Assembly: GCF_035994185.1 (NCBI RefSeq)
Contig: NZ_CP108538.1
Coordinates: 4,131,501-4,195,500 of the forward strand
Length of the DNA stretch: 64,000 bases
Direction of reading: 5' to 3'
Source: Streptomyces sp. NBC_01217
Lineage (GTDB): Bacteria > Actinomycetota > Actinomycetes > Streptomycetales > Streptomycetaceae
Below, one piece after another: positions 23,989-46,608 of the stretch (its first letter is position 1; every line of letters starts with the position of its first letter). The translations under genes were made by a program, and so were the position numbers. The notes beneath the pieces are model-generated. The model did no database searches and had not been told where the DNA came from. It saw only the letters and a list, made by a program, of their open reading frames with translations.

Positions 23989-24012
23989 GGTGTGCCGGGA
24001 AGTCTGGTCGGC
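23989..24012 (+). promoter_or_regulatory. Repeated 24-nt antiporter-associated element, copy A
   Basis: Conserved 24-nt core whose 19-nt centre reads GCCGGGAAGTCTGGTCGGC. It lies 51 nt upstream of the nhaA GTG, inside the probable 5' leader. GCCG and CGGC can pair around a loop. Identical to copy B at 46085 and one base different from copy C at 46585. The preceding CCACAGG is also shared with copy B. It is unlike the riboswitches I know; it may be a structured leader RNA or an operator. Confidence 0.6.
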
Positions 24013-24063
24013 AAGTGCATCAGCCATGCCATCGCTGCCGTACCTACCCGGAGGTCCTCACTC

Positions 24064-25470
24064 GTGGCCGCGCCCACCCCCACACCCTCTTCCTCCCGCC
24101 GTACCTTTCTCGGGCGCCTGTCCCTCCCTGAGCGGAACTATCTCGCGGACGCCCTGCGCACCGAGACCGTCGGCGGAGTCATCCTGCTGGTCGCCGCGAT
24201 AGCCGCCCTGGTGTGGGCGAACACCTTCGGATCCAGTTACACGGCCGTCAGCGACTTCCACTTCGGCCCCGGCTCGCTGGGCCTCAACCTCTCCGTGGAG
24301 CACTGGGCGGCGGACGGGCTGCTCGCGGTCTTCTTCTTCGTCGCGGGCGTCGAACTCAAGCGGGAACTGGTCGCGGGCGAACTGCGCGATCCCAAGGCGG
24401 CCGCCCTCCCGGTCGTCGCCGCGCTGTGCGGAATGGTGACTCCGGCCATCGTCTACACGCTCGTGGCAGTGACCGGCGGGGGTTCCACGGACGGCTGGGC
24501 CGTTCCCACCGCCACCGACATCGCCTTCGCGCTCGCCGTCCTCGCGGTCATCGGCACCTCGCTGCCGAACGCACTGCGCGCCTTCCTGCTGACCCTCGCC
24601 GTCGTCGACGACCTCTTCGCGATCCTGATCATCGCGGTCTTCTTCACCGAGAAGATCGATTTCATGGCGCTGTTCGGCGCCTTCATCGGTCTCGCCGTCT
24701 TCTATCTGCTGCTGCGCAGGAACGTGCGCGGCTGGTACGTCTACGTACCGCTCGCCCTGGTCATCTGGGGCCTGATGTACAACAGCGGCATCCACGCCAC
24801 CATCGCCGGTGTCGCCATGGGCCTGATGCTCCGCTGCACCCGGCGGGACGGCGAGACCCACGCCCCCGGCGAGCACATCGAGCACCTGATCCGCCCGCTT
24901 TCGGCCGGTGTCGCCGTGCCGCTGTTCGCCCTCTTCTCGGCCGGTGTCTCCCTCTCCGGCGGCGCGCTGGCACAGGTCTTCACCCGGCCCGAGACGCTCG
25001 GCGTCGTCCTGGGACTCGTCGTCGGCAAGACAATAGGCATCTTCGGCGGTACGTGGCTGGCCGCCCGCTTCACGAAGGCCGAGCTGAACAAGGACCTGGC
25101 CTGGGCGGATGTCTTCGCGGTCGCCTCGCTCGCCGGGATCGGCTTCACCGTCTCGCTGCTCATCGGCGAGCTGGCCTTCGCCGGCGACGAGGACATGATC
25201 AACGAGATCAAGGCCGCGGTGCTGCTCGGTTCCCTGACGGCCGCCGTACTCTCCGGTGTACTGCTCAAGCTCCGGGTACGCAGATACCGGACGCTGTACG
25301 AGGCGGAGGAGCGCGACGAGGACCAGGACGGCGTGCCCGACATCTACGAGCAGGGCGACCCGGCGTACCACCTGCGGATGGCCGCGATCTACGAGAAGAA
25401 GGCGGCCGAGCACCGTCGGCTTGCCCAACTGGCGGGGGCAGCGAGCAGCAAGCCGGACAGTCCGGCATGA
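24064..25470 (+). CDS. nhaA: Na+/H+ antiporter NhaA
   Basis: 468-aa NhaA-type antiporter with ~12 hydrophobic segments. Conserved signatures include GVELKRELVAGEL and PTATDIAFALAVLA, and the paired Asp region LTLAVVDDLFAI, which holds the two transport aspartates. It exports Na+ (or Li+) in exchange for protons. The C-terminal cytoplasmic tail (~residues 415-468) is long and acidic. GTG 24064 (VAAPTPTPSS) is chosen because GGAGG lies nine bases upstream; the ORF extension upstream simply translates the conserved 24-nt element. Possibly controlled by that element. Confidence 0.94.
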   Translation: MAAPTPTPSSSRRTFLGRLSLPERNYLADALRTETVGGVILLVAAIAALVWANTFGSSYTAVSDFHFGPGSLGLNLSVEHWAADGLLAVFFFVAGVELKRELVAGELRDPKAAALPVVAALCGMVTPAIVYTLVAVTGGGSTDGWAVPTATDIAFALAVLAVIGTSLPNALRAFLLTLAVVDDLFAILIIAVFFTEKIDFMALFGAFIGLAVFYLLLRRNVRGWYVYVPLALVIWGLMYNSGIHATIAGVAMGLMLRCTRRDGETHAPGEHIEHLIRPLSAGVAVPLFALFSAGVSLSGGALAQVFTRPETLGVVLGLVVGKTIGIFGGTWLAARFTKAELNKDLAWADVFAVASLAGIGFTVSLLIGELAFAGDEDMINEIKAAVLLGSLTAAVLSGVLLKLRVRRYRTLYEAEERDEDQDGVPDIYEQGDPAYHLRMAAIYEKKAAEHRRLAQLAGAASSKPDSPA

Positions 25471-25517
25471 TCTGACACCAGATGTGTTGAGCAGGAGAGC
25501 TGGAGAGGGAGTCAGGG

Positions 25518-26051
25518 ATGAGCGACCCCGGCAACAACGCGGGCAGTGCCGAGCGCAGTCTCGGGCAGCTGGTCGCCTCGGCGACGGCCGAGATGTCCGC
25601 ACTGGTGCACGACGAGATCGCTCTGGCCAAGGCCGAAGTGCGTCAGGACGTCAAGCGCGGCGTCACCGGGAGCGTGGCGTTCATCGTCGCGGGTGTGCTG
25701 GTTCTGTTCGCGGTCCCGGTGCTGAGCTTCGCGGCGGCTTACGGAATCCACAACCTGGGGCTCGGGCTCGCTTGGTCGTTCCTGATCGTGGGCGCTGCCT
25801 TCATCGTGCTGGGGGCGTTGCTCGCGCTGTTCGCCATCACCAAGTTCAAGAAGGTCAAGCCGCCGGAGAAGTCCATCGCGTCGGCCAAGCAGACGGCGGC
25901 CGTGCTGCAGGGCGTCAAGCCGCACCCGCGGTCCGCCGTGACGGCGGGGGCGAACCTGCCGGCCGCCGTGGGCGGCAAGCCGGCGAACAAGGCCCTGGAG
26001 AAGTCTCCGGTCCAGGACAAGGCGTCCGCTGTGGCACGCTCGTCCACATGA
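25518..26051 (+). CDS. Phage-holin-superfamily membrane protein (DUF1469)
   Basis: 177-aa protein with a helical cytoplasmic N terminus, two hydrophobic helices (~55-80 and ~85-110) and a basic Lys/Ala-rich tail. Despite the family name (putative actinobacterial holin-X) these are chromosomal, non-phage proteins of unknown role, thought to be envelope-associated. The N-terminal QLVASATAEMSALVHDEIALAKAE stretch is the most conserved part. ATG 25518 follows GGGAGTCAGG. Its stop overlaps the next start (ATGA), so the two genes are translationally coupled. Confidence 0.85.
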   Translation: MSDPGNNAGSAERSLGQLVASATAEMSALVHDEIALAKAEVRQDVKRGVTGSVAFIVAGVLVLFAVPVLSFAAAYGIHNLGLGLAWSFLIVGAAFIVLGALLALFAITKFKKVKPPEKSIASAKQTAAVLQGVKPHPRSAVTAGANLPAAVGGKPANKALEKSPVQDKASAVARSST

Positions 26052-27220
26052 CGGTCCCCGATTCCAGCGCATCCGGCCCAGTAGGCCCGGAAGGTCAGGC
26101 AGGCCCGAAAGGTCATGCGGGTCCGGACGGCCGGACGCGTCCCGACGGCCGGACGGGCCCGGACGGCCCCTCAGGCTCGACCGGCCACCCCGGCCAGTCA
26201 CGCCCCTCAGGCTCCACCGGCCGCAAGGGCACCTCGGACTCCCCGCGCTCCTCGGACTCCTCGGGCCTCTCCGATCCGCCGAGTCCGCCCGGCTTCGCCT
26301 CCTCCGGTGGGCCTGTTCGGCTCGACGGGCCGTGGACTCATCGGGACGTGGCGGCCAACGGCGCCCGCTTCCACATCGCCGAGGTCGGCGAAGGGCCGCT
26401 CGTGCTGCTGCTGCACGGCTTCCCGCAGTTCTGGTGGACCTGGCGCCATCAGCTCACGGCTCTCGCCGACGCCGGTTTCCGCGCCGTGGCGATGGACCTG
26501 CGCGGGGTCGGCGGCAGCGACCGTACGCCCCGCGGTTACGACCCCGCCAACCTGGCGCTCGACATCACCGGCGTGATCCGCTCGCTCGGCGAACCGGACG
26601 CCGCCCTGGTCGGCCATGACATGGGCGGCTACCTCGCCTGGACGGCCGCGGTGATGCGGCCGAAGCTGGTGCGCCGCCTCGTGGTCTCCTCGATGCCGCA
26701 TCCGCGCCGCTGGCGTTCCTCGATGCTCTCCGACTTCGCGCAGTCCCGCGCAGGCTCGTACATCTGGGGCTTCCAGCGCCCGTGGGTGCCGGAGCGTCAG
26801 CTCATCGCGGACGACGCGGCGTTGGTGGGCCGGCTGATCCGTGACTGGGCGGGACCCCGGACCCCGGAGTTCCCCGATGACGCGGCGGTCGACGTCTACC
26901 GGCGCGCGATGTGCATCCCGTCGACGGCGCACTGCTCGATCGAGCCGTACCGCTGGATGGTGCGCTCCCTGGCCCGCCCGGACGGAATCCAGTTCAACCG
27001 GCGCATGAAGAGGCCGGTGCGGGTACCCACACTGCATTTGCACGGTTCACTCGATCCGGCGATCCGTACGCGGAGTGCGGCAGGGTCCGGCGAGTACGTC
27101 GAAGCGCCGTACCGTTGGCGACTTTTCGACGGTCTGGGGCACTTCCCCCACGAGGAGGATCCGGACGGGTTCTCGGGCGAACTCATCAACTGGCTCAAGG
27201 ATCCCGAGCCCGACCGGTAG
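26048..27220 (+). CDS. Alpha/beta hydrolase (epoxide hydrolase type) with collagen-like N terminus
   Basis: 390 aa. Residues ~10-61 are an irregular Gly-X-Y run (GPVGPEGQAGPKGHAGPDG and onward), Pro/Gly-rich and collagen-like. The catalytic domain from ~90 has the oxyanion motif HGFP (123-126), the nucleophile elbow VGHDMGG with Asp 191 in place of Ser, and the catalytic His in GLGHFPHEE near the end. An Asp nucleophile points to an epoxide hydrolase or dehalogenase rather than an esterase. ATG 26048 overlaps the preceding holin-like gene. Whether the N terminus forms a triple helix is unknown. Confidence 0.85.
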   Translation: MTVPDSSASGPVGPEGQAGPKGHAGPDGRTRPDGRTGPDGPSGSTGHPGQSRPSGSTGRKGTSDSPRSSDSSGLSDPPSPPGFASSGGPVRLDGPWTHRDVAANGARFHIAEVGEGPLVLLLHGFPQFWWTWRHQLTALADAGFRAVAMDLRGVGGSDRTPRGYDPANLALDITGVIRSLGEPDAALVGHDMGGYLAWTAAVMRPKLVRRLVVSSMPHPRRWRSSMLSDFAQSRAGSYIWGFQRPWVPERQLIADDAALVGRLIRDWAGPRTPEFPDDAAVDVYRRAMCIPSTAHCSIEPYRWMVRSLARPDGIQFNRRMKRPVRVPTLHLHGSLDPAIRTRSAAGSGEYVEAPYRWRLFDGLGHFPHEEDPDGFSGELINWLKDPEPDR

Positions 27221-27653
27221 CCGACGGGCACGGTTGTCCGACGAACAGCCAATTGCCCGGCGCATAAGCCAATTGGCTGACGGATGGGCGGTTACCGACC
27301 ATGAGGCACGGGCAGACGTCGGGGTATGGGCTGGACGCACGACTTCGGTGACGCAGCACGCAACCGTCGCTCGACCGCCACGGCGAGTCCGAGCACTCAT
27401 GAGGGGGGCGGCCCCCAGGGCCGGGTGCACGATATGCATGTTCTGCACGATCCCCGGCTCGGTATCCCGCGCATTCTGCGCCGCAGAGCCCGCTGGGTCT
27501 CGGCGCGGCTGCGCCATCCACGCGGATGACTCCGCCCCGGCCGGCCTGTGAGCGTTCAGTTCACCTGCCGGGCGGGACTTCAACAACTCTCCCGGCTGCC
27601 AGAGATCGGTACGTCGGCACGCCTTGGACCTCTCGGCCTGGAGGCCTCTCGTC
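27221..27653. other. Intergenic region, possible small ORF 27326-27529
   Basis: 433 bp between convergent genes. A 67-codon plus-strand frame at 27326-27529 starts MGWTHDFGDAARN and has no recognisable domain and only a weak Shine-Dalgarno (GGGG four bases upstream). Other frames are shadows. No hairpin stronger than eight pairs was seen. I give the small ORF about a 30% chance of being real. Confidence 0.4.
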
Positions 27654-28859
27654 CTAGAGGGCGCACGCCTGGCTGTCGACCTGCTGGTTGGCGGCGCGGC
27701 CGTTCGTGATGTCCTGGCGGATCTCGTCGGCCGTCAGCGCGTAGCCGGTGTCGGGGTCGTCGAGCGACTTCGCGAAGACGACTCCGTACACCTTGCCGTC
27801 GGGGGTCAGCAGCGGTCCGCCGGAGTTGCCCTGACGGACGGTCGCGAAGAGTGAGTACACGTCGCGGCGGACGGTGCCCCGGTGGTAGATGTCCGGCCCG
27901 CTGGCGTCGATACGGCCCCGGACACGCGCGGCCCGTACGTCGTACGAGCCGTTCTCCGGAAAGCCCGCGACGATGGCACTGTTCCCGGTGTCGGCGTCGT
28001 GATCGGTGTCGGTGAACTTCAGCGGCTTCGCGTCGAGGTCCGGTACGTCGAGTACGGCGATGTCGCGCCGCCAGTCGTAGAGGACGACCTTCGCGTCGTA
28101 CAGCCGGCCCTGGCCGCCGATCTGGACGGTCGGCTCGTCGACGCCGCCGACGACATGGGCGTTGGTCATCACCCGGCGGTCGGCGAAGACGAAGCCGGTG
28201 CCTTCGAGGACCTTGCCGCAGCTCGGGGCCGTACCGACGACCTTGACGATGGACTCCTTGGCGCGGGCGGCGACGGGGCTGCCGACCAGCGCCGGGTCCG
28301 GGGCCCGGACCTCGGTGATCGGCTCGTTGGCGAAGGGGCTGAAGACCTGCGGGAAGCCGTTCTGCGCCAGGACCGAGGAGAAGTCCGTGAACCAGGTGGA
28401 GGCCTGGTTGGGCATCACGCGGGAGATGCCGAGCAGGACCGATGAGCTGCGGACCTCCTTGCCCAGTGTCGGCAGTGAGGTGCCGGCCAGCGCGGAGCCG
28501 ATCAGCCAGGCGACCAGCAGCATCGCGACCACGTTGACCAGGGCGCCGCCGGTGGCGTCGAGGGCGCGCGCGGGCGACCACGTGATGTACCGGCGGAGCT
28601 TGTTCCCGAGATGCGTGGTGAAGGCCTGACCCACCGAGGCACAGACGATCACGATGACGACGGCGACGACGGCTGCCGTCGATGAGACCTCGGAGCCGTT
28701 CGTCAGCTGGTCCCACAGGATCGGCAGCAGATAGACGGCGACGAGACCGCCACCCAGGAACCCGATCACCGACAGGATGCCGACGACGAACCCCTGGCGA
28801 TAGCCGATGACCGCGAACCACACGGCGCCGGCCAGCAGCAGGATGTCCAGCACGTTCAC
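27654..28859 (-). CDS. MarP-family membrane serine protease
   Basis: 401-aa protein: four N-terminal transmembrane helices of the CvpA type (residues ~1-125), a linker, and a trypsin-like extracytoplasmic protease domain. The catalytic triad is intact: H235 in TNAHVV, D266 in RRDIAVLD, S346 in QGNSGGPL. A cysteine pair (about residues 214 and 399) may make the redox-sensitive disulfide described for mycobacterial MarP, which is needed for acid and oxidative stress resistance. GTG 28859 start. Followed on the same strand by nothing; the upstream Nudix gene runs in the same direction. Confidence 0.9.
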   Translation of the reverse strand: MNVLDILLLAGAVWFAVIGYRQGFVVGILSVIGFLGGGLVAVYLLPILWDQLTNGSEVSSTAAVVAVVIVIVCASVGQAFTTHLGNKLRRYITWSPARALDATGGALVNVVAMLLVAWLIGSALAGTSLPTLGKEVRSSSVLLGISRVMPNQASTWFTDFSSVLAQNGFPQVFSPFANEPITEVRAPDPALVGSPVAARAKESIVKVVGTAPSCGKVLEGTGFVFADRRVMTNAHVVGGVDEPTVQIGGQGRLYDAKVVLYDWRRDIAVLDVPDLDAKPLKFTDTDHDADTGNSAIVAGFPENGSYDVRAARVRGRIDASGPDIYHRGTVRRDVYSLFATVRQGNSGGPLLTPDGKVYGVVFAKSLDDPDTGYALTADEIRQDITNGRAANQQVDSQACAL

Positions 28860-28948
28860 CGTCTATAGCCTCGCAGATTCGTCACCGGGCCCGTTCTTTT
28901 CGGCTGGGTCCGGACAGGGCCGGACAGCACAGCACGGGAGTCAGACTG

Positions 28949-29704
28949 TCATGCACGCCAGTCGAGCGGCACCTGCTTGGCGGTGTCCCACGGACGCTCC
29001 CAGCCCGCGAAGTGCAGAATCCGGTCGATCACTCCGGCGGTGAAACCCCAGACCAGGGCGGATTCGACCAGAAATGCCGGACCCCGGTGGCCGCTGGGGT
29101 GGACCGTGGTCGCCCGGTTGGCCGGGTCCGTGAGATCCGCCACGGGAACGGTGAAGACCCGGGCCGTCTCACCCGGATCAACCACGCCGACCGGGCTCGG
29201 CGACCGCCACCAGCCGAGGACCGGCGTCACGACGAAGCCGCTGACGGGGATGTAGAGCCGGGGCAGCACACCGAAGAGCTGTACCCCGCGCGGATCCAGG
29301 CCGGTCTCCTCCTGGGCCTCCCGCAGAGCGGCCCTGAGCGGCCCTGTCGTGGCCTGGTCGCCGTCCTCCGGGTCCAGGGCGCCACCGGGGAACGAGGGCT
29401 GCCCAGCATGGGAACGCAGGTTTCCGGATCGCTCCATGAGGAGCAGCTCGGGGCCGCGCTCGCCGTCCCCGAACAGGATGAGCACCGCGGACTGCCGCCC
29501 GGCGCCGCTCTCGGGCGGCAGGAAGCGGCTGAGCTGGTCCGGCTCGATGGTCCGCGCGGCCCGGGCGACCGGGGCGAGCCAGTCGGGCAGGCCCTCGGCC
29601 GTGACGGTGATGGCGGCGTCGTGACCTGCGCCCGCCGCGCCCACTCCGGTCGCGCTCTGCCCGTACGTATCGTGCCGCTGCGTGCTCTGTTCGTGCGTCT
29701 TCAT
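28949..29704 (-). CDS. Nudix hydrolase, CoA-pyrophosphatase type
   Basis: 251-aa Nudix protein. The signature GX5EX7REUXEEXGU is seen as GGALDPEDGDQATTGPLRAALREAQEETGL, with the metal-binding REAQEETG core intact. The upstream LLLMERSGNLRSHAGQPSFPGGALD segment matches the NuCoA motif of CoA pyrophosphatases, so CoA or its derivatives is the likely substrate. ATG 29704 after GAGGGGTGCC is chosen; the long ORF upstream overlaps nth and is rejected. Next to nth and marP in the conserved actinobacterial order. Confidence 0.9.
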   Translation of the reverse strand: MKTHEQSTQRHDTYGQSATGVGAAGAGHDAAITVTAEGLPDWLAPVARAARTIEPDQLSRFLPPESGAGRQSAVLILFGDGERGPELLLMERSGNLRSHAGQPSFPGGALDPEDGDQATTGPLRAALREAQEETGLDPRGVQLFGVLPRLYIPVSGFVVTPVLGWWRSPSPVGVVDPGETARVFTVPVADLTDPANRATTVHPSGHRGPAFLVESALVWGFTAGVIDRILHFAGWERPWDTAKQVPLDWRA

Positions 29705-29766
29705 AGGCACCCCTCGTCTTTCAACGCCTGTCGTCACGCATTTCGTTCCGGAGCGAGCGCCGTACG

Positions 29767-30732
29767 TCAGCCGGCCCCCAGGGGCGGCGCGGGCTTGCCC
29801 GGGTAGTCCGCCGGCGGGCTCAGCCGCTGACCGGGCTGACCGCCCATCTCGTACTTCAGCAGCTTCCTGGCCTTCTCCGGGTCGGTCTCGCCCTCCCCGT
29901 ACGCCGGGCAGAGCGGGGCGATCGGACACGCGCCGCAGGCGGGCTTGCGGGCATGGCAGATACGGCGGCCGTGGAAGACGACGCGGTGCGAGAGCATCGT
30001 CCACTCGCTCTTGGGGAAGATCGCGGCGATCTCGGCCTCGACCTTCTCCGGATCCTCCTGCTCCGTCCACTTCCAGCGCCGGACGAGGCGCCCGAAGTGG
30101 GTGTCGACGGTGATGCCGGGTACGCCGAAGGCATTCCCGAGGACGACATTGGCGGTCTTGCGGCCGACCCCCGGGAGCGTGACGAGATCGGCGAGGCGGC
30201 CCGGCACCTCGCCGCCGAATCTGTCCCTGAGCGCCACGGAGAGGCCTATCAGCGACTTGGTCTTGGCCCGGAAGAAGCCGGTCGGCCGAATGAGCTCTTC
30301 CATTTCCTCCGGGACGGCCGCGGCCATGTCCTCGGGGGTGGGGTAGGCGGCGAAGAGGGCGGGGGTGGTCTGGTTGACCCTCAGATCGGTGGTCTGAGCG
30401 GAGAGGACCGTGGCGACGAGAAGCTCGAAGGGGTTACGGAAGTCCAGCTCGGGGTGGGCGTACGGATAGAGCTCGGCCAGCTCACGATTGATCCTGCGGG
30501 CACGGCGGACCATCGCCAGATGCGATTCCGGCTTCGCACCGGGCCGCTTTGCTCCGGACTTCGCACCGGCCCCTGCCCCGGCCGTGGCTCCGGCCTTCGG
30601 GGCCTGCTCGCCCGCAGGGCGTTTTGTCGCTTTTCTCGGGCGGCTCGCAGCCTGTTCGCCCACAGCGGAATCACGGCCTTCCGACACCCCATCAGCCCCC
30701 TTGGCCTGCGCTCTCACCGGCGATTTGGACAC
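29767..30732 (-). CDS. nth: Endonuclease III
   Basis: 321-aa base-excision-repair glycosylase/AP lyase for oxidised pyrimidines. The helix-hairpin-helix [11 protein letters not shown] carries the catalytic Lys 192 and Asp 210 lies in ITVDTHFGR. The 4Fe-4S loop C259-X6-C266-X2-C269-X5-C275 is complete. An Ala/Lys/Gly-rich ~70-residue N-terminal extension precedes the catalytic domain; such extensions are common in actinobacteria. GTG 30732 is taken as start; an internal start near MVRRARR (residue 74) would give the size typical of E. coli Nth. Divergent from crp, with 184 bp between. Confidence 0.93.
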
Positions 30733-30916
30733 CCGGCCAGCCTAGAGCCACGCACTGACATCCGCCCCGGTCACCGCGTATCCACCCCCAATCGGCCCCC
30801 TGCCTCACGGTTCGGCACGCCCGTGCGTCAAACTGGTTTGTGATTGATCGCACTGTTTTACCGTCCGGCATGATGGGGACCACGGTTCCCTGAACAGGCC
30901 GACAAGGAGAGAACTC

Positions 30917-31591
30917 GTGGACGACGTTCTGCGGCGCGCCCCGCTTTTCGCGGCGCTCGATGATGAGCAGGCCGCGGAGCTCCGCGCCTCGATGAGTGAG
31001 GTGACCCTCGCGCGCGGCGACGCGCTCTTCCACGAGGGCGACCCGGGCGACCGCCTCTATGTGGTCACCGAGGGCAAGGTGAAGCTTCACCGCACCTCCC
31101 CCGACGGGCGCGAGAACATGCTGGCCGTCCTCGGCCCCGGCGAGCTGATCGGTGAGCTGTCGCTCTTCGACCCGGGCCCGCGCACCGCCACCGCGACCGC
31201 GCTGACCGAGGTCAAGCTCCTCGGCCTCGGCCACGGCGACCTCCAGCCCTGGCTGAACGCCCGCCCCGAGGTGGCCACGGCCCTGCTGCGCGCTGTCGCC
31301 CGCCGACTGCGCAAGACCAACGACCAGATGTCGGACCTGGTCTTCTCGGACGTACCGGGCCGTGTCGCCCGCGCCCTCCTCGACCTGTCGCGCCGCTTCG
31401 GCGTCCAGTCCGAGGAAGGCATCCATGTCGTCCACGACCTGACCCAGGAAGAGCTGGCCCAGCTGGTCGGCGCCTCCCGCGAGACGGTCAACAAGGCACT
31501 CGCCGACTTCGCCGGACGCGGCTGGCTGCGCCTGGAGGCGCGCGCCGTGATCCTGCTGGACGTGGAGCGCCTGGCGAAGCGGTCCCGCTAG
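30917..31591 (+). CDS. crp: cAMP receptor protein Crp
   Basis: 224-aa Crp/Fnr-family regulator, the Streptomyces Crp that controls germination and secondary metabolism. The cNMP-binding domain (~10-125) contains GELIGELSLFDPGPRTATA, the phosphate-binding cassette with Glu and Arg that contact cAMP. The dimerisation helix follows, and a winged helix-turn-helix (TQEELAQLVGASRETVNKALADF, ~165-190) recognises DNA. GTG 30917 is preceded by AAGGAGAGAA. Monocistronic with its own terminator. Confidence 0.95.
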   Translation: MDDVLRRAPLFAALDDEQAAELRASMSEVTLARGDALFHEGDPGDRLYVVTEGKVKLHRTSPDGRENMLAVLGPGELIGELSLFDPGPRTATATALTEVKLLGLGHGDLQPWLNARPEVATALLRAVARRLRKTNDQMSDLVFSDVPGRVARALLDLSRRFGVQSEEGIHVVHDLTQEELAQLVGASRETVNKALADFAGRGWLRLEARAVILLDVERLAKRSR

Positions 31592-31630
31592 CCGCCCCGC
31601 CGACGACCGGACGCTCTCTCACGTACGCAA

Positions 31631-31656
31631 AAGGCCCCGCCGCACGGCGGGGCCTT
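31631..31656 (+). terminator. crp terminator
   Basis: Eleven- to twelve-base perfect GC-rich stem (31631-31642, 31645-31656) flanked by AAAA on the 5' side and CTT on the 3' side, 40 bp after the crp stop. It could terminate both crp and the convergent metallo-hydrolase gene. Confidence 0.8.
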
Positions 31657-31717
31657 GCGCGTGCCGTACGAGCGCCCTGCGCATGGCCCTGCGCCTGCCT
31701 TGCGCCGCCCATGCGTC

Positions 31718-33498: not shown

Positions 33499-33651
33499 GG
33501 CCGGAGGCTATCCGGAACCGCGACGATGTTCGAGAGCCACGTTGATCCGTACATGCCCCGTACACACATGATCCCGCCCGGTCATCACGACCGGACGGGA
33601 TCGAAGAACAAGAGCAGGAGAACGAACAGCGGACGGCACCGGAGCTACGGC

Positions 33652-34122: not shown

Positions 34123-34280
34123 TACGCCTTCTCCCGCTTCAGGTAGGCCACGAGCTGCTCGGGGTTGTTCGGGCCGGGAACGACCTGGACCAGCTCCCAG
34201 CCGTCCTCGCCCCAGGTGTCCAGAATCTGCTTGGTCGCGTGCACGAGAAGGGGCACGGTCGCGTATTCCCACTTGGTCAT
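34122..34280 (-). CDS. DUF4177 small protein
   Basis: 52-aa protein of the DUF4177 family (MTKWEYATVPLLVHATKQILDTWGEDGWELV...). It forms a compact alpha/beta fold with a conserved WEY start and a DGWELV motif. Function unknown. ATG 34280 is chosen over a longer upstream frame. It directly precedes ridA and is divergent from the ArsA-like gene (72 bp apart). Conserved gene pair in Streptomyces. Confidence 0.88.
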   Translation of the reverse strand: MTKWEYATVPLLVHATKQILDTWGEDGWELVQVVPGPNNPEQLVAYLKREKA

Positions 34281-36843: not shown

Positions 36844-36856
36844 CCGCCCGTGCGGC

Positions 36857-37207: not shown

Positions 37208-37593
37208 CACGGCGCCGTCCTCTCCCGAATCGAGGCTCCCCCACGGCGGTAGCGGCATATTCACCGCTGCCAGTTGAGGACGTTACGGAAGGCGGCGACA
37301 GCACAACACCCCCTTCGGGCCCAATCTTGAATGGCCCGAACGGACTATGCGTATGCGGCAGATCACCCAGGGGAGTGAGGTGAGGACATACCTCGCCATC
37401 CCGGCAGAATCAGGACAGTTCGCCTGGATCACAACGGACGTTCGATGACACAGGAGGCGAATTCGGGAGCGCCTGAACGCGTGGCCGGATCGTGCACGGG
37501 GGTTGATACGGAACGGGACTGCTGTGACAGTTGTGAGCAGCTTAGGCCAAGGCATATACGCGTGTCCGGCGAATGAGAACGTAGGCTGCCCCC
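37208..37593. other. wblA / PBP divergent promoter region
   Basis: 386 bp between divergent starts with no credible gene. Moderately lower GC near 37320-37360 and 37530-37570. I recognise no operator. A minor inverted repeat lies around 37283-37320, but its pairing is weak. It presumably holds the wblA and pbp promoters. Confidence 0.5.
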
Positions 37594-39837: not shown

Positions 39838-39857
39838 CTTCTACCGTTCACGCACAT

Positions 39858-39905
39858 GAAGGTGGGGCGCCCCGGATCGATCCAGATCCGGGGCGCCCCA
39901 CCTTC
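39858..39905. terminator. Strong bidirectional terminator
   Basis: Twenty-one-base perfect inverted repeat (39858-39878, 39885-39905) with a six-base loop, centred between the convergent PBP and YqeY genes (21 bp after one stop, 30 bp from the other). The longest perfect hairpin I found in the window. Confidence 0.9.
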
Positions 39906-39934
39906 GTGCATCCCTGTACGTACGCGGCGCGGGC

Positions 39935-40399
39935 TCAGCCAGCCAGGAGCTTTTTCACCGCGGCGGCCACCCGGCCGCCGTCCGCAAGCCCCGCGACCTT
40001 CGGGTTCACGATCTTCATGACGGCACCCATCGCCCGCGGGCCCTCGGCCCCGGCGGCCTTCGCCTCCTCGACGGCGGACGCCACGATCGCACCCAGTTCG
40101 TCGTCGCTCAGCTGCTTCGGCAGGTACGCGTCGAGCAGCTCGCCCTCGGCCCGCTCGCGCTCGGCCTGCTCGCTCCGGCCGCCCTGGGCGAAGGCCTCGG
40201 CCGCCTCGCGGCGCTTCTTCGCCTCCTTGGCGATCACCTTCTGCACCTCGTCGTCGGAGAGTTCGCGAGCCGTCTTGCCGCTGACCTCCTCCTTCGTGAT
40301 GGCGGTGAGCGTCAGCCGGAGCGTGGACGAGGTCAGCTCGTCACGCGCCTTCATGGCCGTGGTGAGGTCTTCCTTGAGCTTGGACTTGAGCGTGGTCAT
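39935..40399 (-). CDS. GatB/YqeY domain protein
   Basis: 154-aa YqeY-family protein, equivalent to the C-terminal tRNA-binding domain of GatB (TTLKSKLKEDLTTAMKARDE... and the GAVMKIVNPKVAGLADGGRVA ending). Free-standing YqeY proteins are widespread; a role in amidotransferase or tRNA quality control is suspected but not shown. ATG 40399. Divergent from the metallophosphoesterase gene (79 bp between starts). Confidence 0.88.
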   Translation of the reverse strand: MTTLKSKLKEDLTTAMKARDELTSSTLRLTLTAITKEEVSGKTARELSDDEVQKVIAKEAKKRREAAEAFAQGGRSEQAERERAEGELLDAYLPKQLSDDELGAIVASAVEEAKAAGAEGPRAMGAVMKIVNPKVAGLADGGRVAAAVKKLLAG

Positions 40400-40478
40400 G
40401 TGCTGATTGTGGCAGGTGCGGGGTGCGGGCCGCCCGCCGGTTTTCCGCGGGGCTCACGGTGTCTGCAACGATGGGCGG

Positions 40479-41417
40479 ATGCGCGCACGCTACGGAGTAC
40501 CCCTGAAAGTCACGGCAGTCGGCGCAGCGGTCGGCGCTGTCGGCCTCGCCTACGCCGCCGGATTCGAGGCCCGCTCGTTCCGCCTGCGACGGGTCACCAT
40601 CCCCGTACTCCCTCATGGGGCACGCCCGTTGCGCGTACTCCAGGTCTCCGACATCCACATGGTCAGCGGGCAGCGCAAGAAGCGCGCCTGGCTGCAGTCG
40701 CTGGCCGGCCTGCGCCCGGACTTCGTCGTGAACACCGGCGACAACCTCTCGGACCCCGGAGCCGTGCCCGAGCTGCTCGATGCGCTCGGTCCGCTGATGC
40801 AGTTCCCGGGTGTGTACGTCTTCGGCTCCAACGACTACTACGGCCCCAAGCTCCGCAACCCTGCCCGCTACCTCTTCGAGAAGGCCCAGGGCAAGCACGG
40901 CCTCAACGGAAACTCCCCCGCGGTCGGCGTCGTCCACAACCCGTGGGAGCCGATGCGCGACGCCTTCGACGAGGCGGGCTGGCTGGGCCTGGCCAACACC
41001 CGCGGCCGCCTCAAGATCGACGGCCTGGAGATCGCCTTCACCGGCCTGGACGACCCGCACATCAAGCGCGACCGCTACGCGGAGGTGTCGGGCGGCCCCG
41101 AGACGGGTGCCGACCTCTCCATCGGCGTGGTCCACGCCCCCTACCTGCGCTCCCTGGACGCCTTCACCGCGGACGGCTACCCCCTGATCCTGGCCGGTCA
41201 CACCCACGGCGGCCAGCTCTGCATCCCCTTCTACGGAGCCCTGGTCACCAACTGCGACCTGGACACGGACCGGGTGAAGGGCCTCTCCACCCACTCCGTC
41301 GAGGACCACCGCGCCTACCTCCACGTCTCCGCAGGCTGCGGCACCAACCGCTACACCCCGGTCCGCTTCGCCTGCCCCCCCGAGGCAACCCTGCTGACCC
41401 TGACCCCCCGGGACTGA
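40479..41417 (+). CDS. Metallophosphoesterase
   Basis: 312-aa calcineurin-like phosphoesterase with an N-terminal hydrophobic segment (VGAAVGAVGLAYAAG) that anchors it or acts as an uncleaved signal. The metal motifs are DIHM, GDNL, GSND (GNHD/GND type) and GHTHGGQ. UDP-2,3-diacylglucosamine or lipid-type phosphatases share this architecture, but the substrate is unknown. ATG 40479 is chosen as the start (MRARYGVPLK). No strong ribosome-binding site is present, so a leaderless transcript is possible. It ends 118 bp before the tRNA. Confidence 0.88.
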   Translation: MRARYGVPLKVTAVGAAVGAVGLAYAAGFEARSFRLRRVTIPVLPHGARPLRVLQVSDIHMVSGQRKKRAWLQSLAGLRPDFVVNTGDNLSDPGAVPELLDALGPLMQFPGVYVFGSNDYYGPKLRNPARYLFEKAQGKHGLNGNSPAVGVVHNPWEPMRDAFDEAGWLGLANTRGRLKIDGLEIAFTGLDDPHIKRDRYAEVSGGPETGADLSIGVVHAPYLRSLDAFTADGYPLILAGHTHGGQLCIPFYGALVTNCDLDTDRVKGLSTHSVEDHRAYLHVSAGCGTNRYTPVRFACPPEATLLTLTPRD

Positions 41418-41535
41418 GCCCCACGGCTCCCGGGCCCCCTTCGGCCCCCTCGCCCTCAGCAGCACATAAACCGGATTTCGTCTGCGGGCGCGGGTGGGCT
41501 AAAGTAATCGATGTCGCCGGGACACCGACGACGAT

Positions 41536-41609
41536 CGGGGTGTAGCGCAGCTTGGCAGCGCGCTTCGTTCGGGACGAAGAGGTCGTGGGTTCAAATCCCG
41601 CCACCCCGA
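41536..41609 (+). tRNA. tRNA-Pro (CGG)
   Basis: Complete cloverleaf of 74 nt. Acceptor CGGGGTG/CACCCCG (41536-41542, 41602-41608), anticodon stem CTTCG/CGAAG with loop TTCGGGA (anticodon CGG), T-stem GTGGG/CCCGC with TTCAAAT, and discriminator A. CCA is not encoded. tRNA-Pro(CGG) is the integration target of pSAM2 in S. ambofaciens, and accessory genes start just downstream here. I find no second copy of the 3' end in the window. Confidence 0.97.
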
Positions 41610-41624
41610 CAGTGAAGTACCAGG

Positions 41625-41661
41625 TCAGGGGCCTGATCCGCAGTGCGGGTCGGGCCCCTGA
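41625..41661 (+). terminator. tRNA-Pro downstream hairpin
   Basis: Nine-pair outer stem (41625-41633, 41653-41661) extended by a seven-pair inner stem (41635-41641, 41645-41651) separated by one-base mismatches. It lies 15 bp after the tRNA and is presumably its terminator. Confidence 0.7.
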
Positions 41662-41852
41662 GTGGTTCCTGGAGATCGCTTGGGAGAAATCTGGGAGAAG
41701 ATCTTGGTCGGCTTCTCCCAGGAGCAGTCTCCAGTGCCGCAGGAAGAGCGGCGCTCACGCGCGCTCGGACCTGCGCGTTCGCGAATCCAGGGCTCGTAGC
41801 TGACCAGGAAGACCGCGGCGGGCCGCCCCAACGGTCGTTAGGAACACCGCAC

Positions 41853-42533
41853 ATGGCAGGTCATCGCTCAGCGCCTCCCCACGACCGTGCCCGTGCGCTC
41901 GCCCAGCGGGTACGCGCGTTGCGGGAGGACCGCGGGTGGACGCGTGAACGACTGGCCAAGGAGGCGGGCATCGCCGTCGGAACGGTGAGCCGCCTGGAGA
42001 ACGAGGGAGCGATCCAGCCAGGTTTCTTCACCGTCGGCGCCATGGCCGAGGCCCTCGCGGTCTCCCTCGATGATCTGTTCCAGGCGGCCCAGGTCACGCC
42101 CGGCCTCTGGTCAGCCGGATACGAAGGGCGGGACATCGACTCGTTCGTCGCCTCGCTCGTCACCAGCCGCATCGGCGTGGTTGCGGATGTACGGCTCACC
42201 CCGATCAGCCGCAAGAAGGGCTTCAGCAAGACCCGCCTCGGGGGCGCGCTTGCCGAGGCCGGCATCGAGTACACGCACCTGCGTGGCCTGGGCAATCCCA
42301 AGGACAATCGGGAGCCCTTCTGGGACGGCCGCGTCGAAGTGGGACAGGCGCGCTTCCGTGCCCTGCTGCAGTCCGAAGAGGCTCTGGCCGACCTTGACCG
42401 CCTCGCGGAGCACGCCCGAACGTCACGTGTCGCGGTGCTGTGTTTCGAGAAGGACGAGAGCCGCTGCCACCGGCAGGTCGTCCTGGAGGTGGTCCGCAGC
42501 CGGGTCTCGGTGCCGGTGAATCCCTTGGCCTGA
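41853..42533 (+). CDS. HTH-DUF488 fusion protein
   Basis: 226-aa protein: an N-terminal XRE helix-turn-helix (~10-70, LAKEAGIAVGTVSRLENEG) fused to a DUF488 domain (~85-226) with GYEGRDIDSFVASL, VVADVRLTPISRKKGF and the C-terminal CFEKDESRCHRQVV. DUF488 proteins often sit in mobile or defence islands, sometimes next to restriction or nuclease genes; the activity is not established. The HTH suggests it binds its own or the next gene's promoter. ATG 41853 after TTAGGAACACC. Just downstream of tRNA-Pro, first gene of the islet. Confidence 0.85.
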   Translation: MAGHRSAPPHDRARALAQRVRALREDRGWTRERLAKEAGIAVGTVSRLENEGAIQPGFFTVGAMAEALAVSLDDLFQAAQVTPGLWSAGYEGRDIDSFVASLVTSRIGVVADVRLTPISRKKGFSKTRLGGALAEAGIEYTHLRGLGNPKDNREPFWDGRVEVGQARFRALLQSEEALADLDRLAEHARTSRVAVLCFEKDESRCHRQVVLEVVRSRVSVPVNPLA

Positions 42534-42620
42534 CTTCGTCGTCGGGTTTCGCACGCGCCCTTGCCAGCGGTGCATGCCTCTCTTCCAATCAGATCGGGGA
42601 GATCGATGGAGGGGGCACAC

Positions 42621-43454
42621 ATGGCGTCGTCGGCACTCGGAAAGCGGCAGCGGGCCCGGATCATGATCACGGTCAAGACATATCCGGAGCTGTCCAACAA
42701 GTACCGCGAGACCAGCTGCGTGGCTGGCATACGCCTGGACCAAGGGGAGCCGCAGCACGTGCGGCTCTTCCCGGTGCCCTTCCGACTCCTGAGCGAGGAG
42801 GCCCGGTTCTCCAAGTACTCGATCATCGAGGTCGATATCGAACCGCACCGTCCAGAGCGGGACTCACGGCCGGAGAGCCTCCGGCCAGACCTCGACACCT
42901 TGGAGATCGTGGGTCAGGTGCCGCCCGACGGCGGCTGGAAGAAGCGGTACCAGTATGTGGAGCCTCTGGTCGCACCGTCGCTCTGCGCCATCAAGCGGGA
43001 TCAAGAGAAGCGGGGAACATCCCTCGGCGTCTTCCAGCCCGCCGAGATCACCCGCTTTCGGCTGGAGCCCGCCGAGCCCTGGTCCGTCTCCAAGGCCGCG
43101 CTCGCCGACCAACTCGACCTGTTCGAGCAGGAGCTGAACCCACTGAAATGGGTACCGCTCGACCTCCGCTACAGCTTCCGCTGTGCCGACGACGACTGCC
43201 CGACCCACGACATGGGGCTGAAGGACTGGGAGGCCGGCCAGTCGTACCGCAAGTTCCTGCGCAGGTACGGCGAGCGCGGGGTCCACGAGGCACTGCGCGA
43301 GCGCTGGTACAACCGGATGTGCGCTCCGGACCGGGCCGTCCACTTCTTCGTCGGCAACATCGCTGCCCATCCCAAGACCTTCATGCTGTTGGCCGTCTTC
43401 TACCCGGAGCGGACGGTCGTCGAATACGTGCAGGACAGCCTGTTCGGTGAGTGA
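42621..43454 (+). CDS. Uncharacterised protein with C/H zinc-like motif
   Basis: 277-aa protein not recognised as a named family. It starts with a basic segment and then MITVKTYPELSNKYRETSCVAG. It has an acidic beta-rich middle and a C-terminal region FRCADDDCPTHDMGLKDWE that looks like a Cys/His zinc knuckle followed by a conserved DWE. The extreme C terminus (HFFVGNIAAHPKTFMLLAVFYP) resembles a small globular core. ATG 42621 after GGAGGGGGCACAC is preferred over 42606. It lies 87 bp after the HTH-DUF488 gene and is probably in its operon. Function unknown; an islet-specific nuclease or sensor is conceivable. Confidence 0.75.
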   Translation: MASSALGKRQRARIMITVKTYPELSNKYRETSCVAGIRLDQGEPQHVRLFPVPFRLLSEEARFSKYSIIEVDIEPHRPERDSRPESLRPDLDTLEIVGQVPPDGGWKKRYQYVEPLVAPSLCAIKRDQEKRGTSLGVFQPAEITRFRLEPAEPWSVSKAALADQLDLFEQELNPLKWVPLDLRYSFRCADDDCPTHDMGLKDWEAGQSYRKFLRRYGERGVHEALRERWYNRMCAPDRAVHFFVGNIAAHPKTFMLLAVFYPERTVVEYVQDSLFGE

Positions 43455-43472
43455 CACGCTTCGGCCGGAGAT

Positions 43473-44588
43473 TCAGGCGGACTTGCTGCGCTGCCGCGTG
43501 TCGTTCGGTTCCTGTGCTCCCGCCTGCTTCGGGAACGGGGTGACCTTCTTCGGGCGAGGCTCCTTTCCGAAGAACTCCCGGTATTTCTCGACGGTGCCGA
43601 TCTCCCTGACGACCTTCCTTACCCAGGCGGGTGTGTATACGTATGTGCCGAATGCCTCGCTGTAGATGCAGTACTTCGCGTTCGTGGCGCGGGGGTCGGG
43701 AGCTCCGGTGGCAGGTCTGACTGCGAGCCGTCGCCACACTTTGGCGTGCTCGTTGTGGACACTGAATTCGAAGGGCACTTGCTCTTCCACCAGGCGGGCG
43801 ACCCGCCCTGGGAGCAGCATGTCCTTGTCGGCCACCTCGACGTGCTTGATCTTCTCGATCACCGTGCCGAGACGCCCGGCCTCGACCATGGTCCTGCGCT
43901 CGTCCTCACTCAGTTCGTCGAGCTTGACGAAGTTGATCGCCAGGTCAGCGTCCGTTTTGGCGCCGATGATGGGCACGAGCCGTACGCGGTAGTCGTATCG
44001 GAGATCGTCGAGGACCGTGAGATCGATGGCGGCCTCGAACTTCGCCACCAGGTCGCGGGTGTGCTTCGGCAGCTTCTTCGCCGCTGCCTGGAGCTGCTCC
44101 CGCCCTTCAGCGGTGAGTGCTTGGAGCGACATCGGGAAGCGGAGCCGATCGGCAAGGCTGTGCTCGGGGCCGAAGTGGGCGACCAGTTCCTGCTCGTAGT
44201 TCATGACGAGCGCCTGGGCCCTGCCGCCTGTGACGATCTTCAGGTTGTGCTCGTAGCGGTGCTCCACCTTGTTGCGGAGCGCCACGAACAGCTCCCCGTT
44301 CAAACGCACGGGATCCTGGTTGTCGGGGAAACGCTCCCGCAAGCACCGGTCCAGATCCCAAGCCTTGGGCTCACCGTCGATCAGCTGGTGGTGACCGGTC
44401 TTGGGGTCTCGGTAGTGGTAGTCGATCTGCGCCTTGTGGAACTCGGCGTGGAGCAGGTAGTGCCACGCCCTGTGCATGTGCGTGAGGAAGTCGCTGTAAT
44501 TACCAGTCGAGCAATTCCACTCGTCCACCGCTTTGAGGGCGTGCCGCTGCGACTCCATGAGGATGTGGCGCCAGCGAGCGTATGCCAT
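43473..44588 (-). CDS. DUF3644 domain protein
   Basis: 371-aa protein of the DUF3644 family, with the conserved FVALRNKVEHRYE motif at ~105-118 (a HEPN-like R-x4-6-H pattern, RNKVEH). A helical N terminus and a long basic C terminus (KVWRRLAV...KKVTPFPKQAG) follow. DUF3644 genes are frequently found in defence islands, so an RNA-binding or RNase role is an attractive guess. It converges on the 277-aa unknown gene, with 18 bp between the stops. ATG 44588 after GAAGGACG. Confidence 0.78.
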   Translation of the reverse strand: MAYARWRHILMESQRHALKAVDEWNCSTGNYSDFLTHMHRAWHYLLHAEFHKAQIDYHYRDPKTGHHQLIDGEPKAWDLDRCLRERFPDNQDPVRLNGELFVALRNKVEHRYEHNLKIVTGGRAQALVMNYEQELVAHFGPEHSLADRLRFPMSLQALTAEGREQLQAAAKKLPKHTRDLVAKFEAAIDLTVLDDLRYDYRVRLVPIIGAKTDADLAINFVKLDELSEDERRTMVEAGRLGTVIEKIKHVEVADKDMLLPGRVARLVEEQVPFEFSVHNEHAKVWRRLAVRPATGAPDPRATNAKYCIYSEAFGTYVYTPAWVRKVVREIGTVEKYREFFGKEPRPKKVTPFPKQAGAQEPNDTRQRSKSA

Positions 44589-44857
44589 GTCGTGCGTCCT
44601 TCTCGTCCATAAGAAGGGTCACACCAACAGCCGTATCAGGACAAGCAGAATTCCCACGACGAGTCAGCAACGCCACCCGCAACAGCACTACTACCCGTCA
44701 ATCACCGGACCCGTTGTGTCCAGCGCAGCGCCCACGGTGTCCGGTCCACGACGTTCGAACCGATACTCCGCTGGCCTCTCTCCCAACTCGGCGACCTGTG
44801 TGGGCAGATCGCCTTCCCCCAGCCTGCGCTTCACATGACTCCTGCGAACGACGCCGC
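44589..44857. other. Intergenic region
   Basis: 269 bp between the DUF3644 gene start and the end of the PucR-type regulator. It is less GC-rich (44620-44760) than its neighbours, with no gene and no tRNA-like repeat. It marks the end of the tRNA-adjacent islet. Confidence 0.5.
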
Positions 44858-45919
44858 TCAGAAGGGCTTCGCGGGCCAGTCCAGCAGCCGGGCCCCGATC
44901 ACCGCGGTCTGGAGCGTGTAGCGGTGCACCGGGTCGGACGGGTCGGCGCCGGTGAGCTTGTGGATGCGTTCCAGACGGTACGTGAACGCACGCACGCTCA
45001 GCGACAGCCGGCGGGCCGCCTCGGCGGCCACACAGCCGGAGTCGAAGTAGGCGGTGAGGGTGTCGAGGAGCGGCTCGGCTCCGCCGCGGGCCTGGCGCAA
45101 CGGGCCGAGGGCACTGACCACCAGATCGGCCATGGCCTGCCGGTCGCGGGTGAGGACGGGGTAGACGAGGAGGTCGGCGGCGCGGAGCACGGGTTCGTCG
45201 AGTTCCAGACGGTCGGCCAGATCGAGGGTGTTCAGGGCTTCCTCGTACGACTGGACGACGCCGGCCGCGCCGGGCTGCGGGCGGCCGATCGCGACCCGGC
45301 CACCGTCGGTGGCGGCGAACGCCTGCTTGGCGAAGTAGGCAAGGACATCACCCTGGTCGCCGGGTGCGATGCACACGAGTCGGCCGTCCTTGGTGGTGAG
45401 CAGGATGCTGCGGTCGCCGAAGCGGCCTATCAGCGCGCGCTCCACCTCCCTGGGCACGGGGTCACCCTCGTCGTATGCAACATCACCACGTGCCACGGCG
45501 ACCGCGTGCTCGTACGACAGCCGCAGTCCGTAGCGTTCGGCGCGCTGGGCCAGCAGGCCCAGGTCGCTGCGGCCGTAGAGCAGATCGTCGATGAACTCAC
45601 GGCGGGCGGCCTCCTCCTGGCGTACGGCGTGGCGCTGGGCGCGTTCGTAGCCCTCGGCAAACGCGTCGAGGGCCTGGGCGGCGGCGGCCAGGACGTCGTC
45701 GGCGGACGCGGTGTTACCGGTGGGCCAGTGCGCTCGCGTTGCGGCCATGTGGGCGCCGACCAGGGAACGCAGTCCGAGCCCGGCCTCGGCGGCCTGCTCC
45801 CCCAGGACCCGGCGCGAGTCCAGTTCCTCCCGTGTCAGACGACGCCCGGTCCCCGAGGCGTCCGCGAGAAGGCGTGCGTACCCCTCCAGGTACTCCTCGG
45901 AAACGTCCTGCCCTGCCAT
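44858..45919 (-). CDS. PucR/CdaR-type transcriptional regulator
   Basis: 353-aa regulator. The N-terminal ~130 residues form a helical RsbRD-like sensor, the middle a GGDEF-like CdaR domain, and the C-terminal PucR-type HTH is AYFDSGCVAAEAARRLSLSVRAFTYRLERIHKLTG. ATG 45919. Divergent from the STAS/antiporter cluster, so it may regulate that operon. No binding site is identified in the 216-bp intergenic region, and the ligand is unknown. Confidence 0.82.
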   Translation of the reverse strand: MAGQDVSEEYLEGYARLLADASGTGRRLTREELDSRRVLGEQAAEAGLGLRSLVGAHMAATRAHWPTGNTASADDVLAAAAQALDAFAEGYERAQRHAVRQEEAARREFIDDLLYGRSDLGLLAQRAERYGLRLSYEHAVAVARGDVAYDEGDPVPREVERALIGRFGDRSILLTTKDGRLVCIAPGDQGDVLAYFAKQAFAATDGGRVAIGRPQPGAAGVVQSYEEALNTLDLADRLELDEPVLRAADLLVYPVLTRDRQAMADLVVSALGPLRQARGGAEPLLDTLTAYFDSGCVAAEAARRLSLSVRAFTYRLERIHKLTGADPSDPVHRYTLQTAVIGARLLDWPAKPF

Positions 45920-46084
45920 GTGCTCCCCCGGATCCGATGAGCTGTTGACGCCTTTCTAGCGCATGGGCCGGGGATCGGGCCCTGGTGGGGGCGAGGTCTC
46001 TGCCGGGCTCCGGCAGTCCGGCGGAGCCACCGAACGGGTCCGCACAGCAGGCGCTCCGCTGCCTGGGCCTCTACGCTGCCCACA

Positions 46085-46108
46085 GGTGTGCCGGGAAGTC
46101 TGGTCGGC
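46085..46108 (+). promoter_or_regulatory. Repeated 24-nt antiporter-associated element, copy B
   Basis: Identical over 24 nt to copy A (23989). It lies 27 nt upstream of the STAS gene ATG, so it is in the leader or overlaps the promoter. It lies in the 216 bp between the regulator and the STAS gene, after CCCACA. The core centre is GCCGGGAAGTCTGGTCGGC. Confidence 0.6.
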
Positions 46109-46135
46109 GGACAGGCTCGCGTGCCCGGAGGCCCG

Positions 46136-46477
46136 ATGCACCGCTTTCGCTCTCTTATTCGCTGGCATCGGCCCGGCCGGGACAATCCTCCGCACGGTCA
46201 CACGGTCGTCCGCCTGCACGGCGACCTCGATGCCCGAAACGCCGATGCGACAAGCCGACGACTCGTGCGGCTGATCGACACCGGGGTGGACGTCCTGGAA
46301 GTGGACCTGGCGGATGTGCAATACCTCAGCCCGGACGGCTGCGCGGCGTTCTTCGCGGCGCTTCGAACGGCCCGGGTGCGCGGTGGCCGGCTGGTCATCA
46401 CCCACGCCAGTGACCATGCGCAGTCGGTTCTGCACCAGATCGGTCTGTCCCGCGCTCTGTCGGAGCAGGACGGCTGA
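46136..46477 (+). CDS. STAS-domain protein lacking the phospho-acceptor
   Basis: 113-aa STAS domain (anti-anti-sigma fold) preceded by a basic leader (MHRFRSLIRWHRPGR). It has strands TVVRLHGDLDARNAD and VLEVDLADVQYL. The loop that holds the phosphorylated Ser in SpoIIAA/BldG (D-S-T/S-G) reads S-P-D-G here, so the acceptor is missing. It is therefore either constitutively active, non-functional in switching, or a scaffold. ATG 46136 follows CCCGGAGG at good spacing. It precedes the NhaP-type antiporter gene by 172 bp. Confidence 0.82.
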   Translation: MHRFRSLIRWHRPGRDNPPHGHTVVRLHGDLDARNADATSRRLVRLIDTGVDVLEVDLADVQYLSPDGCAAFFAALRTARVRGGRLVITHASDHAQSVLHQIGLSRALSEQDG

Positions 46478-46584
46478 AGCGGGCCCCAGCCGCTGAAGTT
46501 GCCGGAATCCGGCAATGACCGGCACACCAGAGTGCCCGCCAAGGATCTGTCAATGCCACGTAAAGAACGTGTAGGGTTCCCCGC

Positions 46585-46608
46585 GGTGTGCCGGGAAGCC
46601 TGGTCGGC
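46585..46608 (+). promoter_or_regulatory. Repeated 24-nt antiporter-associated element, copy C
   Basis: Same element with one change (T to C, in GGGAAGCCTGG), 41 nt upstream of the NhaP-type antiporter ATG. It lies in the STAS-antiporter intergenic segment, so it is a second element within 500 bp of copy B. Repetition ahead of consecutive genes argues for a leader or operator rather than a chance match. Confidence 0.6.

Follow-up and report, generated by a model that had tools for sequence, protein, structure and literature searches.

A conserved hairpin in the leaders of actinobacterial cation antiporter genes is probably a new candidate class of Na+-responsive riboswitch

The 64,000 nt stretch of Streptomyces sp. 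NBC_01217 analyzed here (contig NZ_CP108538.1, positions 4,131,501 to 4,195,500; hereafter the window) carries three copies of a 24-nt element, located in the leaders of nhaA, a STAS-domain gene, and a second cation/proton antiporter gene. The element, a short and almost invariant hairpin, is the core of an undescribed structured RNA that recurs across the phylum in the leaders of cation antiporter genes and lies outside Rfam 15 as far as searched. Its members form a family with covariation at the RNA level, an association with ion-transporter genes, a phasing to the promoter, and an enriched alternative pairing beside the Shine-Dalgarno sequence (SD). The family is probably a new candidate riboswitch class responding to Na+, with the ligand and the switching inferred.

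Structure and covariation of the core

The 25-nt core consists of a leading GGNG, four stem pairs (6-24, 7-23, 8-22, and 9-21) on which a wobble pair 5•25 is stacked, and an 11-nt conserved loop closed by the stem, GGAAGNCUGGU. All 132 stem cells are paired in the 33 distinct 24-mers associated with transporters (132/132). The 7-23 pair shows all four Watson-Crick types (CG, UA, AU, and GC), and the 8-22 pair occurs as CG and UA. Pairs 6-24 and 9-21 are uninformative on conservation because the search pattern fixed them, as it did all but one of the 12 loop and closing positions. Among the 120 matches listed that were picked for a non-C at position 7 and a non-G at position 23, the combinations are UA (100), AU (7), GU (6), and GC (2), with five unpaired, which amounts to 109 Watson-Crick pairs, 6 G•U pairs, and 5 unpaired cases. 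The covariation score of the stem is 0.336, compared to 0.096 in shuffled alignments, and none of the 500 shuffles equals it; the number of pairs changed on both sides is 2 (13 of 500 shuffles as high) and that of further pair types is 4 (176 of 500 as high).

In the mutual-information analysis of 211 dereplicated leaders, a set that was filtered for 7-23 pairing and unfiltered for 5-25, the 7-23 pair ranks at the top and 5-25 is second with 0.52 bits, followed by the next pair with 0.19. The combinations at positions 5 and 25 are U•G (117), C•A (43), A•A (15), A•G, U•A, and U•U (8 each), and, more rarely, U•C (6), C•U (3), C•G (2), and G•G (1). This association (chi-square p 1e-24) looks alike whichever stem type is present. 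U•G and protonated C•A wobble pairs are isosteric. The alternation between U•G and C•A, instead of U-A and C-G, argues for an RNA, since it is not explained by a DNA dyad. Both stem types are found within one genome (G253) and even within one locus (L126).

Inside the 24-nt core the covariation backs one stem only, and the region 3' of the core is variable, save for a box described below, the SD, and the start codon. As would be expected of a riboswitch, a conserved structured RNA domain is found in the sense orientation in the 5' leader. The original prediction had left the choice between a cis-acting RNA and an operator, forming a regulon for sodium or envelope stress: the compensatory stem changes and the covarying wobble pair favor RNA, and indicate that the element acts as such; the 5-25 pairs, which do not keep the dyad, speak against the operator half of the proposal.

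Genes downstream of the motif

The downstream genes were tallied for 216 unique matches to GGNGNGNNGGGAAGNCTGGTCNNC, pooled from the collected loci, which are a non-random sample (L114 to L232 were chosen for stem variants, and three are viral). Genes were assigned by tblastn of reference transporters from the same loci against 1.5 kb downstream on the same strand, and the category names are our own. The predicted link to antiporters extends far beyond the window: 188 of the 216 matches precede an ion-transporter gene of the same orientation, which is of a Na+/H+ antiporter type (NhaA, NhaP, or PF00999) in 171 cases. The assigned genes comprise NhaA (137), NhaP-type (19), the PF00999 type of the window (15), ArsB/NhaD-type (6), Kup (4), APC (2), Mrp (Mnh) (2), and one each of SulP, pyrophosphatase, and P-type ATPase; the copy preceding the STAS gene of the window is tallied under PF00999 because that antiporter falls inside the 1.5 kb. 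In 180/188 cases the matched gene is inferred to start no more than 150 nt away, though in only 2/6 for the ArsB/NhaD type.

Of the 28 unassigned matches, the stem is broken in 13 and intact in 15. No broken-stem match (0/13) is followed by an ion-transporter gene, and the assigned matches all keep their stem. Judged by eye, two of the 15 intact ones precede what looks like a truncated nhaA (L153 and L196) and one what looks like a TrkH-type gene (L214); others are followed by unrelated or unknown genes. In an independent draw of 80 genomes of the phylum, PF06965 gave 51 matches in 35 genomes, 47 of them with a 5' end, and 21 of these 47 NhaA genes have the motif, in their own orientation, no more than 400 nt upstream; among the zero-mismatch motifs of this draw, 20/29 lie before NhaA. 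Of 30 NhaA loci inspected, 15 have the exact motif before the gene and 15 have none; one of the loci without it (L247) shows a 4-mismatch match about 200 nt upstream.

The four copies before Kup K+-uptake genes (L142, L189, L202, and L217) all carry the rare GACG/CGUC stem. In addition, motif copies in L126 (5023, + strand) and L218 (1670, reverse strand) lie 5' of a conserved small protein of 172 aa with unknown function.

Copies in the genome and occurrence in actinobacteria

A search of the 9.03 Mb genome for the 20-nt core TGCCGGGAAGNCTGGTCGGC, tolerating up to 3 mismatches, gives 27 matches, 8 exact and 19 with 3 mismatches, and none with 1 or 2; the reversed-pattern control gives 13. All eight exact copies, three of which fall in the window, are on the strand of the following gene, namely 4 nhaA-type genes, 2 of the PF00999 type of the window, 1 other NhaP-type, and 1 STAS gene, and in the case of the last one another copy and an antiporter come 500 bp later (gene types outside the window were assigned by reading and tblastn, not by Pfam). 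A search of the whole window with a 23-nt query, allowing up to 3 mismatches, returned exactly the three copies, whereas 100 shuffles that preserve dinucleotides averaged 0.00 matches. A repeat scattered at random is ruled out by these shuffles (0/100) and by the placement of all eight exact copies before antiporter-type or STAS genes.

Within the genus, 19 of 26 genomes (counting this one) contain the exact 20-mer. With 3 mismatches it matches in 147/147 genomes of the order, a setting which, judging from the reversed control, also admits chance matches. GGNGNGCCGGGAAGNCTGGTCGGC with up to 2 mismatches was found in 73/246 genomes of the phylum (own genus included), and the consensus GGNGNGNNGGGAAGNCUGGUCNNC (model R1, E ≤0.01) in 129/197 sampled genomes of the class, representing 56/90 genera. 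A genome-collection scan made for stem variants only gave at least 119 stretches, and 78 of the 80 listed titles are Actinomycetota by name. The other two listed titles belong to an archaeon and a delta-proteobacterium; in both, positions 7 and 23 do not pair and no transporter was assigned, so that on the titles listed a spread beyond Actinomycetota was rejected. A phage origin was likewise rejected: the three viral matches all have a broken stem, none precedes a transporter, and they are taken as chance. Lower-scoring model matches (E about 3e-4) in four genomes of a single genus, g195 (G428, G443, G458, and G471), may be a diverged variant or chance.

Transcript start

The sequence TANNNT is found at exactly -13 before G1 of the motif in 91 of 187 leaders, as it is in copies B and C of the window, and at -14 to -12 in 140/187, where the end of the box is separated from G1 by 6-8 nt; further upstream it occurs 1.4 times per position. 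This phasing indicates that the motif usually begins the mRNA. In many nhaA leaders of the genus (L005, L030, L032, L053, and L055) an extra hairpin of the GCGUCA ... UGACGC type was seen by eye between the promoter and the core.

Pairing next to the Shine-Dalgarno sequence

Downstream of the core, the words TCGACCC (16 vs 0.3 in shuffles), GTCGACC (15 vs 0.5), and CGACCCC (18 vs 1.4) are enriched in 159 dereplicated leaders; they are complementary to the 3' strand of the core, and the other enriched words are the SD and start codons. The box tracks the stem type, with GCCGAY accompanying CGGC cores and GTCGAY accompanying CGAC cores (16:9 vs 6:22, Fisher p 0.0023; differing base composition between the groups may play a part). 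Across 211 leaders, core positions 18-24 have a predicted pairing of 0.71 with the downstream region, compared to 0.52 when dinucleotide-shuffled sequence is used (p 2e-16). Relative to the SD, the strongest partner falls between -14 and +5 in 90 of 127 leaders vs 47 of 114 shuffled ones. The SD itself pairs with core nucleotides above the shuffles (0.277 vs 0.159). These values support a pairing beside the SD. An H-type pseudoknot, formed between GGU of the loop and a downstream ACC, was also tried; ACC is present in 84 of 160 leaders vs 56.5 in shuffles, and is indistinguishable from the GUCGACC box.

The three copies in the window and their surroundings

All three copies are on the + strand. 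Copy A (23989-24012), in the nhaA leader, has the stem at motif positions 6-9/21-24 and the partner of the position-5 wobble at 24013. A candidate -10-like TACAGT, picked by eye (23945..23950), ends 38 nt 5' of copy A; here additional leader RNA would precede the core. In the predicted fold of this leader, the candidate switching box GCCGTACC (24037..24044) is able to pair with the core 3' strand GGUCGGC with one bulge. It is followed by the SD of nhaA, read from the sequence as GGAGG (24050..24054), and by the gene (24064..25470, PF06965, Pfam 1.8e-130), starting with GTG at 24064. Further 5', on the + strand (18854-21658), a single open frame combines a sulfate-permease domain with a carbonic anhydrase.

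Copy B (46085-46108) is preceded by a -10-like TACGCT (46072..46077), with 7 nt from the end of the box to the copy, and followed by a GGAGG SD (46127..46131, read from the sequence) and the STAS-domain gene (46136..46477, PF13466/PF01740; STAS_2 PF13466 1.7e-13; ATG at 46136). Divergent from this gene, a PucR-type regulator (GGDEF_2 and HTH_30 domains) is encoded at 44858-45919 on the - strand. In another genome (L082), a motif copy is found 86 nt 5' of a protein resembling it, and the regulator may share the circuit of the motif, because a similar-looking protein follows the copy there.

Copy C (46585-46608) has the same 7-nt separation from its -10-like TAGGGT (46572..46577). In the predicted fold of its leader, the box GCCGATC (46631..46637) pairs with the core 3' strand and abuts GGGGG (46638..46642), the likely SD, as read from the sequence, of the cation/proton antiporter gene (46650..47885, + strand, Na_H_Exchanger PF00999, Pfam 2.6e-41; ATG at 46650). 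A CitMHS/ArsB-type permease (48327-49625) and a CBS-domain protein (49954-50625) are encoded 3' of the antiporter on the + strand, and similar permease and CBS genes are also found 3' of motif copies elsewhere.

The description of the copies in the original prediction is borne out: A and B are identical over 24 nt, C differs by a single T to C change at position 15, the distances to the start codons, foreseen as 27-51 nt, are 51 (A), 27 (B), and 41 nt (C), and two of the three targets are Na+/H+ antiporters by Pfam (PF06965 and PF00999). The dismissal of a leader peptide stands as well. Copies A and B contain a GTG (23992 and 46088, respectively) from which an open frame continues into the downstream gene, yet the GTG of copy C (46588) is out of frame with the antiporter ATG, and motif position 5, in the middle of that codon, varies among the family members; therefore neither a conserved leader peptide nor a conserved coding region accounts for the element.

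Comparison with known riboswitches

Whole-Rfam scans gave no family at the gathering score at the element, either in the window or in 10 further loci, and at E values up to 5 no family was found at the element in 7 loci of the same genome, so the possibility of a known Rfam family, raised with the original prediction, did not materialize. The Na+-I riboswitch (DUF1646 motif, RF03071) is a leader RNA located 5' of Na+/H+ antiporter and other Na+-related genes, studied as a 66-nt construct of P1, a linker, and P2, with conserved nucleotides at the P1 base and in the P2 loop (PMC9337991). Both RNAs are thus leaders of Na+/H+ antiporter genes, but the two-stem arrangement (PMC9337991) contrasts with one short hairpin of 25 nt in the present motif, which does not divide into P1 and P2. 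RF03071 (Na+-I, 'Sodium') was found in 0/98 genomes of the class, at stricter filters. The Li+-I, Li+-II (nhaA-I, nhaA-II), and Na+-II riboswitches are ion-sensing and commonly precede nhaA; nhaA-I is described as resembling Na+-I in its model, and a 2017 paper is given as the source of nhaA-I, nhaA-II, and DUF1646 (PMC9646797). The present motif shares the nhaA leaders with them and differs in that whole-Rfam scans of the loci matched none of these families at the element.

The dauA motif, a candidate riboswitch with 57 representatives in Streptomyces only, precedes a STAS-protein gene, as copy B does, and forms a three-stem junction taking in the SD (PMC11109978). In contrast, as far as the description of dauA goes (PMC11109978), the present motif is a single covarying hairpin, phylum-wide, and mostly found before antiporters. 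Copy B and the dauA motif may overlap. A literature search by topic, with scant coverage of subscription journals, found no paper describing the motif, and a search by the motif letters gave matches only on mammalian systems.

Proposed mechanism and alternative explanations

We propose a cis-acting RNA, with which the mRNA begins in most leaders and whose core hairpin is the aptamer. Without ligand, the core 3' strand (GGUCGRC) would pair with the GYCGACC-type box just 5' of the SD and hinder ribosome entry; folding of the core, stabilized by the ligand, would free the box, so that Na+/H+ antiporters and other ion transporters would be expressed more strongly as cytoplasmic Na+ goes up. The gene set suggests sodium as the signal, and Na+ is the first candidate ligand: the dominance of Na+/H+ antiporters, together with Mrp, pyrophosphatase, and K+-uptake genes, fits Na+ stress or alkaline pH, with pH or another ion as a less likely ligand. 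The chances appear even that the family is a new riboswitch class in which Na+ raises antiporter and ion-transporter expression through the SD-adjacent box, a reading whose ligand, ON direction, and translational step are inferred. That the 25-nt 5'-terminal hairpin is by itself the ion-sensing aptamer, constituting an Actinomycetota-wide Na+ class unrelated to Na+-I, Na+-II, and Li+-I/II, is a more tentative suggestion, to which we lend somewhat less than even credence.

Several observations weigh against this mechanism. A hairpin of 25 nt is unusually small for a natural aptamer, and in the 80-genome draw the motif is missing from 26 of the 47 NhaA genes whose 5' end is present. The probability of the core hairpin in nearest-neighbor folding is only 0.02, compared to 0.06 with shuffled downstream sequence, a weakness for which ligand or tertiary contacts would be needed. 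When the core is forced, the mean accessibility of the SD falls from 0.432 to 0.379 (133 leaders), and with shuffled linkers from 0.371 to 0.353; a test for a larger gain in the real leaders gives p 0.97, and a gain above 0.3 is seen in 6/133 leaders. The forced-core folding does not support release of the SD by core folding as a general rule.

Protein-bound regulatory hairpins usually take the form of a short stem with a conserved loop, and RNA-binding regulators such as PyrR and LicT act comparably elsewhere. The core has this form, its weak predicted stability fits capture by a protein, and the conserved loop and the wobble pair suit protein as well as ligand recognition. The hairpin could instead be bound by a conserved RNA-binding protein sensing Na+, pH, or osmotic state, which would control translation or early transcription; no candidate protein was identified, and no search was made for one co-occurring with the motif, and we regard this explanation as rather unlikely, though worth keeping in mind. 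A 5'-terminal hairpin, or an initially transcribed sequence, could also set mRNA stability or promoter escape without any sensing, as the placement at the 5' end in most leaders would allow; such a role would need neither the conserved loop sequence nor the restriction to ion-transporter genes, and is improbable.

The start near the likely +1 in most leaders, and the inverted repeat formed by the arms GNNG/CNNC, would also agree with a double-stranded DNA operator that overlaps the transcription start and recruits a dimeric regulator. Such a dyad wants T-A or C-G at 5-25, found in 8 and 2 of the 211 leaders, respectively, yet T•G (117) and C•A (43) prevail; moreover, the arms co-vary through four pair types around a conserved non-palindromic center, both arm types coexist in one genome (G253) or locus (L126), and in the nhaA leader of the window some 40 nt separate the core from the candidate -10. 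We give this explanation little credence. The strong conservation across 24 nt could reflect the target site of a trans-acting small RNA, which is very improbable, as pairing with such an RNA does not require the paired changes at stem positions.

Implications

If the proposed Na+-responsive riboswitch is confirmed, the phylum, Streptomyces included, would own an RNA sensor for Na+ (or pH), in contrast to the Na+-I riboswitch, which has no match in the 98 class genomes tested at stricter filters, compared to 129 of 197 for the present motif. The covarying U•G/C•A wobble yields sharp mutational predictions, and so short a motif lends itself to direct probing. PMC12892944 mentions a role of the S. 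coelicolor nhaA (SCO3564) in alkaline stress, which offers a ready phenotype. The riboswitch would also offer a compact part for expression engineering.

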